Assembly: GCA_015488885.1 (NCBI GenBank)
Contig: WFMW01000065.1
Location: 1 to 37,879, forward strand
DNA: 37,879 nt
Direction: 5' to 3'
Source of the DNA: Gammaproteobacteria bacterium
GTDB lineage: Bacteria > Pseudomonadota > Gammaproteobacteria > SZUA-229
The notes under the pieces are model-generated. The model worked only from the letters and a program-made list of their open reading frames with translations, was not told the DNA's origin and ran no database searches. A program made the translations under genes and the position numbers. Below, piece after piece: positions 32,144-37,582 of the stretch (within the stretch, counting starts at the first letter, position 1; every line of letters starts with the position of its first letter).

Positions 32144-32851
32144 ATGATTAATATTCGAATACCTGTTATCAGTTTTTTAATTTTGGGTAGTACCGTGTTG
32201 TTTGGCGTACTAACCAGTGAACCTGCTTTTGCCGCAACGGTACGCTATGTCAGTGATCAGTTAACTATTCCCATGCGTTCAGGTGCCTCAACGCAGTATC
32301 GTATTATAAAGTTTATCTACAGTGGTACGGCATTAACGGTAACGGATACTTCGGATGATGGTAAATATCTGCATGTCACCACACCAAAAGGACTGTCCGG
32401 CTGGGTTGAAGTAAAAAAAGTGATGGCTCAGCCTAGTGCGCGTGCCCGCATTGTCACCTTAAATAAAAAGATGGGTCAATATGCAGAAACCGTCGCCCAG
32501 CTGAAAAAAAATATTGCCGATCTGAATGCGAAGAATCGTCAGCTAAGCAGTCAGTATAAGGGGCTTGAAAGTGATAAGCAGACGCTGGCTAATGCTTATG
32601 ATGATTTAAAAGTAAAAGCTTCCAACCCGCTGGCGATTGCGCGAAAAAACAAACAGTTGCAACGTGATCTTGATCAGGCACAGGCTACTGCGGCGCATTT
32701 TGAACAGGAAAATCAGCACCTGCGCGATAATGTCATGCAGACCTGGTTCCTCATCGGCGCGGGTGTGTCACTGGGCAGTCTGTTATTGGGGTTGATTATT
32801 ACCCGGATTAACTGGCGTCGAAAACGCAATAGCTGGGGCGACAGTTTTTAA
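32144..32851 (+). CDS. SH3-domain membrane protein (YgiM-like, TIGR04211 type)
   Basis: A 235-residue envelope protein. It has an N-terminal signal peptide (about 1-30, ending AFAAT), a bacterial SH3 domain (about 31-100, VRYVSDQLTIPMRSGASTQY through GLSGWVEVKKVM), a coiled coil (about 108-195) and a C-terminal TM helix (about 200-222) followed by a basic tail. This is the layout of E. coli YgiM and the TIGR04211 family; the role is not established and is presumed to involve the cell envelope. A TATAAT at 32079-32084 is a possible -10 element. Its TAA stop overlaps the convergent senA stop by 4 bp (32848-32851). It is not obviously linked to selenoneine synthesis. Confidence 0.85.
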   Translation: MINIRIPVISFLILGSTVLFGVLTSEPAFAATVRYVSDQLTIPMRSGASTQYRIIKFIYSGTALTVTDTSDDGKYLHVTTPKGLSGWVEVKKVMAQPSARARIVTLNKKMGQYAETVAQLKKNIADLNAKNRQLSSQYKGLESDKQTLANAYDDLKVKASNPLAIARKNKQLQRDLDQAQATAAHFEQENQHLRDNVMQTWFLIGAGVSLGSLLLGLIITRINWRRKRNSWGDSF

Positions 32852-34143
32852 GCTGAAGTCAGTCGGCAGCTTCTGAATCCGGCAAATACATCATTTCTGT
32901 CGGCACCATAATAATTGCGCCAGGTGTTGCGTATCATCCGTGAGCGTGTTGGCCAGGCGCCACCACGCAGGACTCTGGTTTTGCCAAATAAAGGCTGTGA
33001 ATAATCTGCGTACATATCCGGGGTGAAGCCGGGGTAGGGCTGGAAGGTATCTGCGGTCCATTCCCATACATTGCCCAGCATTTGCCGGCAGCCAAAATAG
33101 CTGTCACTGGCAGGCAGCGCGCCGACATCAATGGTTGCCATGGCTCGACCATCCATATTGACGGTATCAGTTGCAGGCGGGGTATCACCCCAGGGCCAGG
33201 TGGATGTTGCATCGCTATCAGCGGAAGCGGATGCCGCCCGTTCCCATTCAGCTTCCGTAGGCAGGCGCCGGTTGGCCCAGCGGCACCAGGCACTGGCTTC
33301 ATACCAGTTGACATGTACCACCGCAGCGTGGGGGCGCATGGCTTCCCAGTGGTCGAAGTTTTTGATTAACCATTTTCCGTTGCTGGCTTTTTTCCAGCCG
33401 TTCGGGCCGCTGATATGGTTATGTTGCAGCCATGCCCAGCCTTCCTCATCCCAGAACGGGCGCTGCTGGTATCCCCCGTCGTCAACAAATTCGGCGAACT
33501 GTTGATAACTGGTCGCGCCACGGGCGATACTAAATGCTTGCAGGGTGACCGGATGCTGCCATTTTTCATTATCAAAACAGAAACCATTGTGCGGTTTTGT
33601 GCCCAGCATAAAGTTACCGCCCGGAATTGTCACATCACCATCCAGCGGGCCGGCGTGGTAGGCTTCATTATCGATGACTGCATTGGCAAAAACGGGGGCA
33701 GGGTAGTTCAGGGTGCGTCGGGTATAGGTGAAAGCTTCAGTATGCATGTCTTCATGAAACAGGGCGTAACGGGTAAGGTAGATATCTTCATCGCTCAGGG
33801 CACCGGTCTGTAAACGTTCAATAACCGCCTGTTGTACCTGCTGCATATAATTTCTGGTTTCGCCTGGCGATAATAAAGGCAGCTGCCAGCGGTCATTATG
33901 AGCAATATGGATAGAATCATAAAGTTCATCGGCATGGCTTATTACGGGCCTGCGTTTATCGCGGTGACGTAACAGCCAGAACTCATAAAAATAGGCGACA
34001 TGACCAATTTCCCACAATAGCGGATTAACAATAGCCAGTTGCGGTCCCATCAATTGATCATGGTTCAGGCCTTCAATCAGTTCGAAGGTGCGTTGGCGGC
34101 TGTCATTCAGGTCGCTGATTAATGGCTCAATGATTGTTTGCAT
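32848..34143 (-). CDS. senA: Selenoneine synthase SenA (EgtB-like non-haem iron enzyme)
   Basis: Probable SenA. It joins a selenosugar to hercynine in an O2-dependent reaction at a non-haem iron centre, on the way to selenoneine. The 431-residue protein has an N-terminal DinB-like domain with the three-His iron site H48, H130 and H134 (motif HEDMHTEAF; E136 next to it). A C-terminal FGE-sulfatase/C-type-lectin-like domain (about 170-430) has RLPTEAEWERA, MLGNVWEWTAD and VLRGGAWPTR. The end, NTWRNYYGADRNDVFAGFRSC, matches the C-terminal signature of the EgtB-related group to which SenA belongs. EgtB itself would use gamma-glutamylcysteine or cysteine. The divergent SenB-type gene 84 bp away decides in favour of SenA. 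The ATG at 34143 gives the usual N-terminus. Confidence 0.85.
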   Translation of the reverse strand: MQTIIEPLISDLNDSRQRTFELIEGLNHDQLMGPQLAIVNPLLWEIGHVAYFYEFWLLRHRDKRRPVISHADELYDSIHIAHNDRWQLPLLSPGETRNYMQQVQQAVIERLQTGALSDEDIYLTRYALFHEDMHTEAFTYTRRTLNYPAPVFANAVIDNEAYHAGPLDGDVTIPGGNFMLGTKPHNGFCFDNEKWQHPVTLQAFSIARGATSYQQFAEFVDDGGYQQRPFWDEEGWAWLQHNHISGPNGWKKASNGKWLIKNFDHWEAMRPHAAVVHVNWYEASAWCRWANRRLPTEAEWERAASASADSDATSTWPWGDTPPATDTVNMDGRAMATIDVGALPASDSYFGCRQMLGNVWEWTADTFQPYPGFTPDMYADYSQPLFGKTRVLRGGAWPTRSRMIRNTWRNYYGADRNDVFAGFRSCRLTSA

Positions 34144-34227
34144 GGTTGCTTGAGTAGTCGGTTAAAAGAATGACCTGGCAGTGGTGTATAGCAGGCATAA
34201 AGGTTACTTTTTCGGTTATTATACGCT
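34144..34227. promoter_or_regulatory. Shared senA/senB divergent promoter region
   Basis: Only 84 bp separates the two start codons. On the plus strand TATTAT at 34217-34222 lies 5 bp before the senB ATG; if it is the -10 element, transcription would begin at or next to the start codon and senB would be leaderless. On the minus strand TATACA (about 34185-34190) is a possible senA -10. Neither has a strong -35. Confidence 0.3.
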
Positions 34228-35202
34228 ATGCATATTGGAATCATAACACCTGCTGCAGCAAAATCCCTGAACGGAAACCGTGCCACTGCGCAACGCTGGG
34301 CGGGTATTTTACGTCAGCTCGGCCACAAGGTGAGCATTGCAGTAAACTGGCAGGGTTGCCATTACGATATGATGCTGGCCTTGCATGCCTGGCGTAGCGC
34401 AGAGGCGATTGCCGGTTTCCGGGCGCGGTTTCCCGCGCAGCCATTAATTGTGGCCTTAACCGGTACCGATCTGTACCGTTTTATGTATAGCCATCCACAG
34501 ACTACCCTGCGTTCGATTGAACTGGCTGATTATCTGGTGGTATTGCATGACCGGGCAATACGTATTATTCCCCCGGCATCACAGGCCAGGGTAAGAGTGA
34601 TTTACCAGTCAGCACAGGCATTACCGGCACCGTCCAGGCGTTCGGTACGATCCTTTGATATTTGCGTAGCCGGGCATTTGCGTGATGAAAAAGACCCCTT
34701 GCGCACCGCTTACGCAGTACGTGACCTGCCTGCCGACAGCCGTATTCGGGTGTTGCATTTTGGCAAGGTACATAATGAAAAATGGGCAGCTCGCGCCGAA
34801 CATGAAATGCATATCAACCCGCGCTATCACTGGTTTGGCGAAGTCCCACACTGGCAGGTGAGGCGGGCATATGGTCGCTGTCATCTTATGGTGCTGTCAT
34901 CGCTGATGGAAGGCGGGGCGAATGTAATCTCGGAAGCCTGTGTCGCGGGTTTGCCGGTAATTGCCTCAGATATTGATGGTTCGGTGGGGCTGCTGGGTGA
35001 GGATTATATCGGCTATTATCCGGTGGAAGACACCACCGCATTGCGTGCCCTGCTGCTAAAGGCAGAAGGTTTACCATCAGCCGGGCAGGGTGATTATCTA
35101 CGGACTCTGCAAGCCATGTGTCAGCAACGGGCGGGGGTGTTCACGCTACAGGCCGAAACCCAACGCTGGGCGGATTTACTGGCCGAAACAGGCTTGTCCT
35201 GA
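34228..35202 (+). CDS. senB: Selenosugar synthase SenB (TIGR04348-type glycosyltransferase)
   Basis: GT-B fold glycosyltransferase of 324 residues. It matches the TIGR04348 family, which was identified as SenB: it makes a C-Se bond by joining selenophosphate to a UDP-sugar. The N-terminal IGIITPAAAKSLNGNRATAQRW and GHKVSIAV are typical; then come DMMLALHAWRSAEAI, LTGTDLYR and a late SSLMEGGANVISEACVAGLPV. In the last, E228 and E236 form the E-x7-E nucleotide-sugar motif. There is no signal or membrane segment, so it is cytoplasmic. It is divergent from senA across 84 bp. The substrates are assigned from family knowledge, not from the sequence alone. The selenophosphate donor enzyme (SenC/SelD) is not in this window. 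Confidence 0.87.
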   Translation: MHIGIITPAAAKSLNGNRATAQRWAGILRQLGHKVSIAVNWQGCHYDMMLALHAWRSAEAIAGFRARFPAQPLIVALTGTDLYRFMYSHPQTTLRSIELADYLVVLHDRAIRIIPPASQARVRVIYQSAQALPAPSRRSVRSFDICVAGHLRDEKDPLRTAYAVRDLPADSRIRVLHFGKVHNEKWAARAEHEMHINPRYHWFGEVPHWQVRRAYGRCHLMVLSSLMEGGANVISEACVAGLPVIASDIDGSVGLLGEDYIGYYPVEDTTALRALLLKAEGLPSAGQGDYLRTLQAMCQQRAGVFTLQAETQRWADLLAETGLS

Positions 35203-35222
35203 ATCGTTTACACAGGCATAGA

Positions 35223-36155
35223 CTATTTTTTTTCCGGTATCTGCTCGGCAATGGCGGTGGTGTTTCTGCCCGCCTGTTTTGCGGCATAGACGGCACTGTC
35301 AGCACGTTCAAAAAAGGCCTGTGCCGTTTCATCCGGTAATAAAGTTGCCACCCCCAGGCTCACAGTGGTATGAATTTTTATGCTGTTTATCTGCCGGATG
35401 GCCTCAATATTTTTACGGATACGTTCCGCCAGTAAATGGGCGCCATTGGATACGGTCTGGCTGGTTAAGACAACAAATTCTTCACCACCAAAACGAAACA
35501 GCAAATCACTACCGCGAATGGTAGTATTGATGGTATCGGCAATGGTTTTTAATACGGCATCGCCATAAGCGTGGCCATAGGTATCATTGAACTGCTTGAA
35601 ATTATCCGCATCAAGAATAAGCATGGACAGGGGAGATTGCTTACGGTGTGCCAGTTCCACTTCACGCTGTAAAGTGATATCCATGGTGCGTCGATTCTGC
35701 ACCCCGGTTAACGCGTCATACGAAGCCATTTCCATTGCATGTTGATAATCAAGGGCATTATGCAGTGGATAAACCAGTGCGCTTAACATGTTTTCCAGCA
35801 GTTCTATTTCCTTGCTGGAAAAAGTCCTGTCCCGATAAAAATGCACACTGCCAAGGTTAGTCTGTTCCAGCTTTAAATCATAGGTTGCGCGGTGGGTACT
35901 CAGGGTGCCAATCTTACGGTTAACTTTTTCATCCGGCGACTGATAATCCAGCCCATCCAGTTTTATGTATTTAGTCAGTTTGTCGGCAAACAGCTCAATC
36001 AGTTTAGTCTGTTCTAATGTGGTCTGTAAGACACTGGTTAATTCCTGCACCCGGGCATTCATCGATTGCGTAAATGGCGCTGCAACCGTTCGGTGCAGAT
36101 GATAAGGTTTTACCAGTGAAAGATGGCTGGACTGAAATGAACTCATAGTTTGCAT
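35223..36155 (-). CDS. Diguanylate cyclase (GGDEF domain)
   Basis: Makes the second messenger cyclic di-GMP from GTP. The 310-residue soluble protein has an N-terminal GAF-like region (about 35-135, no clear ligand motif) and a C-terminal GGDEF domain (about 142-308). The active site is GGEEF at 223-227 (LLFRFGGEEFVVL), so it is predicted to be active. The product-inhibition I-site RxxD is intact as R214-GS-D217, five residues before GGEEF. The ATG at 36155 has AGGA 8 nt upstream; an ATG three codons later is also possible. It is convergent with senB. Raised cyclic di-GMP would fit the downstream surface-protein genes, but no direct link is seen. Confidence 0.94.
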   Translation of the reverse strand: MQTMSSFQSSHLSLVKPYHLHRTVAAPFTQSMNARVQELTSVLQTTLEQTKLIELFADKLTKYIKLDGLDYQSPDEKVNRKIGTLSTHRATYDLKLEQTNLGSVHFYRDRTFSSKEIELLENMLSALVYPLHNALDYQHAMEMASYDALTGVQNRRTMDITLQREVELAHRKQSPLSMLILDADNFKQFNDTYGHAYGDAVLKTIADTINTTIRGSDLLFRFGGEEFVVLTSQTVSNGAHLLAERIRKNIEAIRQINSIKIHTTVSLGVATLLPDETAQAFFERADSAVYAAKQAGRNTTAIAEQIPEKK

Positions 36156-36455: not shown

Positions 36456-36998
36456 CTAGGCAGTGCGGCGTCTTGCAATACCAACCAGACCAAGCAGTCC
36501 CGAACCAAATAACCAGACAGCGGCAGGTACAGGAACTGTTTGTATAGACATATTATATGATGACAGGCTGGCAGTAGAAAAAGACCAGGTTGCATTTGTA
36601 TCTAAATAATTTGTACCACTTAAAATACCATTGCCTTTAAGTGACAGTAAAGTAGATGTTTGGTCGATGACCGTCAACGATGTAAGTTGGAAATTCCAGC
36701 CTTCAATACTAAAAAAGTTATTACCGGTTAATGAGCCAGTCAGGTTTTCAGCAGCGCCACCACTACCTGTGGAGAAAAATGTAACGTTTGAAGTATCATT
36801 GCTGCCTGTATAACTACCAAATACTGTAGATAAAGCAATGGCAGAAACTGCAGTTAAATCAGAAGGCGCTGTCGGAGTTGTAGTCAGTGCGCCAGTGATG
36901 CCAAATGAGCCATTGATTGGTAAGACTGAAATAGCATTTGCATTTAACGATATTATCGATAAAAAACATATTGAAATAACTTTTATTACACTTTTCAT
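36456..36998 (-). CDS. VPxPA-CTERM sorting-domain surface protein
   Basis: Secreted protein of 180 residues: signal peptide MKSVIKVISICFLSIISLNANA, an adhesin-like Ser/Thr/Asn/Gly-rich body, and a C-terminal exosortase-type tripartite signal, VPVPAAVWLFGSGLLGLVGIARRR. That signal is a VPxPA motif, a TM helix and a basic tail. Exosortase substrates are usually cut at the motif and moved to the cell surface or extracellular matrix. The exosortase gene is not in this window. The gene starts 26 bp after a paralogue on the same strand; both share a G-x-F...LTS(L/V)T core and an ATWSFS / ASWHFS strand, so this is a tandem duplication with diverged sorting motifs. Function of the body is unknown. 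A terminator follows. Confidence 0.87.
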   Translation of the reverse strand: MKSVIKVISICFLSIISLNANAISVLPINGSFGITGALTTTPTAPSDLTAVSAIALSTVFGSYTGSNDTSNVTFFSTGSGGAAENLTGSLTGNNFFSIEGWNFQLTSLTVIDQTSTLLSLKGNGILSGTNYLDTNATWSFSTASLSSYNMSIQTVPVPAAVWLFGSGLLGLVGIARRRTA

Positions 36999-37024: not shown

Positions 37025-37582
37025 TTAATATTTTATTTTTTTACGTAGTCCAAGACCAATGAGTCCAATAGACAGTAAGGCCAGTATTCCCGGTTCAGGG
37101 ATACTGGTTGCCGATTTGGCTGACCAGCTAAATCCGCCATTCCCTGTGATGTCACTGGAAAAATGCCAGCTTGCAGGCGTGTTGTCAAAATTGAGAGCGC
37201 GGATAATGCCGGTTCCATTTAATACAAGAAATGCACTCGGATCATTAGAAGTAATTTGGGTTACGCTGGTTAAATCAAATGAATACCCGCCAATTGTCCA
37301 GAAATTTGCCATGGGACCGGTAAAAGAGGCAAATGCTAAATTTTGTATATTGCCAATATTTCCAACTAGCGCAGTAAAATCACCATCTGCTGCTAATACC
37401 CGAAAGTTATTTGGTCTGAAATTAATGGCGACTGCTAATGATGCATCATTTATAGTATGTCCTGTTGCATCTGATAAATAAGCGCCACCGCCCATATCAA
37501 AAGTACCCACTATCGGCACAGCATACGTGTTTAATGATATTAACGAAACTAGACCGATCAAAATCAATTTGAATTTATTCAC
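37025..37582 (-). CDS. PEP-CTERM sorting-domain surface protein
   Basis: Secreted protein of 185 residues: signal peptide MNKFKLILIGLVSLISLNTYA, a Gly/Asn/Ser/Ala-rich body, and a C-terminal PEP-CTERM signal, IPEPGILALLSIGLIGLGLRKKIKY. The start codon appears to be GTG at 37582, with GGAG 8 nt upstream. The body is paralogous to the downstream VPxPA protein: GTFDMGGGAYLSD aligns with GSFGITGA, and FWTIGGYSFDLTSVTQI with FFSIEGWNFQLTSLTVI. It has no recognised catalytic domain. This is the first gene of a two-gene minus-strand unit. It probably contributes to surface or biofilm matrix material through an exosortase encoded elsewhere. Confidence 0.87.
   Translation of the reverse strand: MNKFKLILIGLVSLISLNTYAVPIVGTFDMGGGAYLSDATGHTINDASLAVAINFRPNNFRVLAADGDFTALVGNIGNIQNLAFASFTGPMANFWTIGGYSFDLTSVTQITSNDPSAFLVLNGTGIIRALNFDNTPASWHFSSDITGNGGFSWSAKSATSIPEPGILALLSIGLIGLGLRKKIKY

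Follow-up and report, generated by a model that had tools for sequence, protein, structure and literature searches.

Does the divergent pair of genes at 32848-35202 of this 37,879-nucleotide stretch of gammaproteobacterial DNA (the window) encode selenoneine synthesis, and if so, which enzyme supplies the selenophosphate? The initial annotation had read an EgtB-like protein and its glycosyltransferase neighbor as a probable SenA/SenB pair. Family scores, the SenB active site, the diagnostic residues of SenA, and the presence of egtD and two selD genes in the genome all agree with this reading. We consider it very probable that the locus holds senA and senB as the core of a selenoneine pathway, with the remaining genes dispersed. 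Both open reading frames are present and divergent as first described (Table 1). It had also been noted that no SenC or SelD gene adjoins the pair. This holds within the window, and both selD genes are found on other contigs.

Table 1. Features of the locus and selenium-related genes elsewhere in the same genome (C numbers are contigs of the window's genome)
Feature	Position	Strand	Properties
senA	32848..34143	-	431 aa; NF041186 487.8 bits (cut-off 420), TIGR04373 79 bits (cut-off 71); predicted non-haem iron selenoneine synthase
intergenic region	34144..34227	.	84 bp between start codons, divergent
senB	34228..35202	+	324 aa; TIGR04348 397 bits (cut-off 300); predicted selenosugar synthase, GT-B fold family
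egtD	contig C4:32719-33627		399 bits (cut-off 290.9)
stand-alone SelD	contig C31		347 aa, HGAGCGCK; 424.7 bits (cut-off 125)
oxidoreductase-SelD (NDH-SelD) fusion	contig C20		764 aa, CGGCGAK; 301.2 bits (cut-off 125)
mnmH-like gene	contig C35:8977-9831		306-aa open frame

The glycosyltransferase is of the TIGR04348 type, as proposed, and belongs to the SenB family with its catalytic residues intact. The closest solved structures are all SenB, and the protein shares 40% identity with SenB of V. paradoxus (VpSenB, 8jjn), on whose structural paper the residue roles given here are based (PMC10891094). The catalytic lysine is kept (K155, equivalent to K158 in VpSenB), as are the sugar-selectivity residues N17/T20/E228 (N20/T23/E231), the selenophosphate pocket H53/R56/T78/T80/R152 (H58/R61/T83/T85/R155) and the ribose contact E236 (E239). 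Among the other mapped VpSenB contacts, Q131 is retained and V157, L209 and T214 are changed. The VpSenB motif EGGAHV reads EGGANV in the window protein (H235 to N232); H235 touches the sugar C4 and its mutants retain partial activity (PMC10891094).

The SenA candidate has a DinB-like N-terminal domain and an FGE-sulfatase C-terminal domain, and the EgtB-related C-terminal signature noted initially is recovered by TIGR04373. The iron triad H48/H130/H134, also noted at that stage, corresponds in alignment to H51/H134/H138 of the EgtB from M. thermoresistibile and does not vary among 33 SenA homologs. The Se-type residues are H82/R85/M133. EgtB carries R87 and Q137 at the positions of H82 and M133; the H/M pair is found in 33/33 SenA homologs, in VpSenA and in OvsA, and in none of ten EgtB sequences. 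The predicted structure (pLDDT 86, pTM 0.88) matches those of OvsA, EgtB and SenA along almost the entire chain (Z about 40-46), and structural rank does not tell the three apart. A quick maximum-likelihood tree, which carried a long-branch warning, placed window SenA within a 31-row SenA-like clade, well apart from ten EgtBs of related genomes that are linked to egtD. VpSenA and OvsA branched outside this clade in a weakly supported mutual order, with OvsA on a long branch nearer to the window clade (weak support, 86); only part of the VpSenA sequence was used, reconstructed from a printed alignment, and its position is therefore less sure. Window SenA is about 40% identical to VpSenA, no closer than to OvsA. 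The candidate groups with SenA/OvsA and separately from EgtB.

The profile check borne out for both proteins (NCBIfam models, Table 1) is not decisive for the SenA product, because OvsA of Halomonas utahensis passes the same SenA model (435.8 bits against 420). OvsA couples a selenosugar to histidine, and N-methylation then leads to ovoselenol. It is the best PDB match of window SenA by sequence (40% identity) and tied for the best structural match (Z 45.8), and it shares the Se-type H/R/M residues. The two proteins differ at the three positions that determine the substrate: OvsA has M401/Q430/A431 for histidine, whereas the window protein has Y381/N410/Y411, the state of SenA, EgtB and the engineered hercynine-binding OvsA. 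PDB entry 8ux5 is titled as the OvsA variant M401Y/Q430N/A431F, hercynine-binding and with selenoneine-biosynthetic activity. Among the 33 SenA homologs, position 381 is always Y, position 410 is N in 25 and T in eight, and position 411 is Y or F in all. OvsA also falls below the TIGR04373 cut-off, which window SenA exceeds, and egtD accompanies the pair in the window genome and in all seven relatives with SenA and SenB. We regard ovoselenol as an improbable product of this locus. Judged from sequence, selenoneine and ovoselenol enzymes would be told apart by the residue triad together with egtD and not by HMM.

The rest of the predicted selenoneine pathway was searched for in the window's genome (2.63 Mb in 72 contigs, estimated 100% complete). 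The search for egtD found the gene on C4, and that for selD/senC found two selenophosphate synthases, on C31 and C20, both of which keep the motif with the catalytic Cys and Lys. A profile search found one SenA only and no second EgtB-family enzyme in this genome; the same search recovers EgtB in many relatives. No selA was found in the genome. The mnmH-like gene on C35 covers just positions 3-273 of the 311 in the model, and the protein is about 371 aa or longer in most relatives; the C35 gene is possibly truncated or frameshifted. The surroundings of the stand-alone selD on C31 include, at a distance of about 2.7 kb, genes for a PhnD-like substrate-binding protein and a hybrid histidine kinase (L156:692-4207). 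Going by the characterized homologs, SenA and SenB would be active enzymes and the route would run as follows. EgtD would trimethylate histidine to hercynine, and a selenophosphate synthase, most likely the oxidoreductase-SelD fusion acting as SenC, would make selenophosphate. SenB would convert selenophosphate and a UDP-sugar to a selenosugar. SenA, an O2-dependent non-haem iron enzyme, would attach the selenosugar at C2 of hercynine, giving a selenoxide that would break down and then be reduced to selenoneine. The best UDP-sugar of a characterized SenB enzyme is UDP-GlcNAc.

Whether the fusion is SenC was assessed in 369 genomes from the class. Of these, 22 have SenB over cut-off and 49 have TIGR03169, the N-terminal oxidoreductase domain of the fusion, so far named only 'Nterm_to_SelD'. 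TIGR03169 is present in 21 of the 22 SenB genomes (Fisher p about 9e-20), which makes the fusion the likely SenC, and in 17 genomes the coordinates of SenB and TIGR03169 place them no more than a few kb apart. The domain also has other uses, since 28 of its 49 carriers are without SenB. In relatives, the fusion sits next to senAB. From this co-location and co-occurrence, the fusion rather than the stand-alone SelD most likely feeds SenB. The selenophosphate synthase fusion has been known since 2008; to our knowledge, its partner domain has no established role. The NADH-oxidoreductase-SelD fusion has been noted before, was proposed to supply reduced selenium and was tied to the uses then known (PMC2432076, PMC4561486). 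The literature searched, which did not include the original sen paper, contained no paper linking the fusion to selenoneine. The oxidoreductase domain would, we infer, act by reducing a selenium precursor. The association of this domain with SenB also bears on an alternative in which the pair would form a thiosugar and, from it, sulfur products, such as ergothioneine via thiophosphate or thiosugar, and not selenium compounds. Enzymes of this kind are commonly promiscuous for S and Se (PMC10702425), and the SenA structure 8k5i was solved with thioglucose bound. Against this stand the lack of a known thiophosphate-making partner and the oxidoreductase domain of SelD fusions that follows SenB in 21/22 genomes; a sulfur product appears highly improbable.

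Among 58 related genomes, SenA and SenB are over cut-off in the identical seven (Fisher p about 3e-9), and chance pairing of the two genes is excluded. All seven carry egtD (Fisher p 6e-4). An EgtB making ergothioneine next to an unrelated glycosyltransferase would fit the shared fold, the 314 bits against TIGR03440 and the presence of egtD, but the score lies under the cut-off of 360, R87 and Q137 are missing, SenA and SenB share an identical distribution over the genomes, and true EgtBs of the relatives adjoin egtD without SenB and are 26-28% identical to window SenA, so that this explanation deserves hardly any credence. To return to selenoneine and its selenium supply, SelD is over cut-off in six of the seven relatives with SenA and SenB; in the seventh, the contig breaks off within the oxidoreductase half of the would-be fusion. 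Stand-alone SelD travels with the selenouridine synthase gene mnmH, which is present in 10/10 genomes with a stand-alone SelD over cut-off among the 58 relatives (p 6e-8). One relative (G012) has SenAB and the fusion without mnmH, so SenB would be the one known use of the fusion there. For three further SenAB genomes (G004, G015 and G025) the fusion is the sole SelD and must serve both purposes alone; the division of labor between the SelDs is thus not absolute. Two close relatives (G010, locus L157; G035, locus L158) have the NDH-SelD fusion, but neither senA nor senB exceeds its cut-off in them. The fusion of G010 is beside egtD, and a different ORF fills the expected place of senB in that genome. 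This pattern suggests loss of senAB or another use of the fusion. The full proposal, to which we give an even chance, has the fusion acting as SenC in this lineage: with NAD(P)H, its flavin domain would convert a selenium precursor directly to selenide for making selenophosphate, and the stand-alone SelD would serve tRNA selenouridine.

Gene order was compared in 80 public SenA loci with fetched flanks, 37 of them from Gammaproteobacteria. The divergent layout had been taken initially as a departure from the senABC operon. This does not hold: senB and senA are divergent in 36 of the 37 gammaproteobacterial loci and the remaining one is cut by a contig end, so that divergence is normal in this class. 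In Acidobacteria and others the order is senA-senB-(egtD) in a single direction. The NDH-SelD fusion lies in the fetched flank of 27 gammaproteobacterial loci, and the oxidoreductase part alone or cut in four more; egtD is in the flank of 15. For all 80 loci the counts are 36 for egtD and 28 for the fusion. The distinctive trait of the window locus is the dispersal of senC and egtD to other contigs and not the divergence. On the senA side, loci L068-L072 share the SH3 (TIGR04211) and cysG neighbors of the window. On the senB side, L069, L071 and L072 carry NDH-SelD and egtD, and in the window a GGDEF gene is found there instead. This is most simply read as a rearrangement immediately past senB by which senC and egtD were moved elsewhere. 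Pathway genes are likewise dispersed in G015 (contigs C4, C47 and C53 of that genome). Beyond the GGDEF gene, the window encodes two small adjacent exported proteins (36456-36998 and 37025-37582) with PEP-CTERM-like C-terminal sorting signals.

The 84-bp gap presumably carries the promoters of both senA and senB. No promoter-like match was found in it; the sole match across 34000-35400 falls within senB, and the count of matches is at the shuffled level. A conserved regulatory motif in the gap was considered and rejected, as the aligned gaps of nine relatives are conserved only at the coding edge.

A search for recurrent neighbors turned up transporters of two kinds close to senAB elsewhere among the genomes and nothing further at the window locus. 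PhnCDE-like ABC transporter genes lie beside senAB in nine loci (L088, L089, L091, L097, L103, L120, L128, L139 and L142) and are a candidate system for selenium-oxyanion uptake. An OpuBC/EgtU-like fused permease-binding protein adjoins senA in mostly non-proteobacterial loci (L111, L114, L121, L124, L125, L127, L138 and L140-L142) and may transport selenoneine, ergothioneine or hercynine. Two Poribacteria loci have senB divided into two adjacent reading frames (L106:9427-10446 and L142:9445-10461) and encode an unfused SelD in between senA and senB.

Compared with V. paradoxus senABC (SenA 8k5i/8ryz, SenB 8jjn/8fbx), the window proteins belong to the same families at about 40% identity each, with the same iron triad, Se-type residues, catalytic lysine and selenophosphate pocket. 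The differences are that senC and egtD of the window genome are on other contigs, that its likely SenC is an oxidoreductase-SelD fusion, and that window SenA residues ~305-356 have aligned counterparts in OvsA and EgtB and none in VpSenA. A further close arrangement is that of gammaproteobacterial clusters with divergent senB and senA plus NDH-SelD and egtD (for example L069, L071 and L148-L150), whose SenA is 63-68% identical; the window locus has lost the NDH-SelD/egtD side, and these genes are on C20 and C4. The annotated senA/senB pair of Methylorubrum populi plasmid pMPOP01 (L165) shows the same divergence, with 46% (SenA) and 50% (SenB) identity, but is plasmid-borne with no SelD or egtD nearby. 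In the plasmid locus senA is truncated at its 3' end by an IS6 element, with loss of a C-terminal part that carries two of the three hercynine-triad residues.

It was concluded that the window locus is an ordinary member of the recently discovered selenoneine pathway. A gammaproteobacterial lineage resembling sulfur bacteria thereby joins the organisms expected to make selenoneine. The three-residue check separates selenoneine from ovoselenol loci where HMM annotation alone fails. The SelD fusion is tied to a specific use, its partner domain being present in 21 of the 22 SenB-bearing genomes of the class. If the proposed roles of the two SelD proteins are true, selenophosphate supply would be divided between two synthases by pathway.
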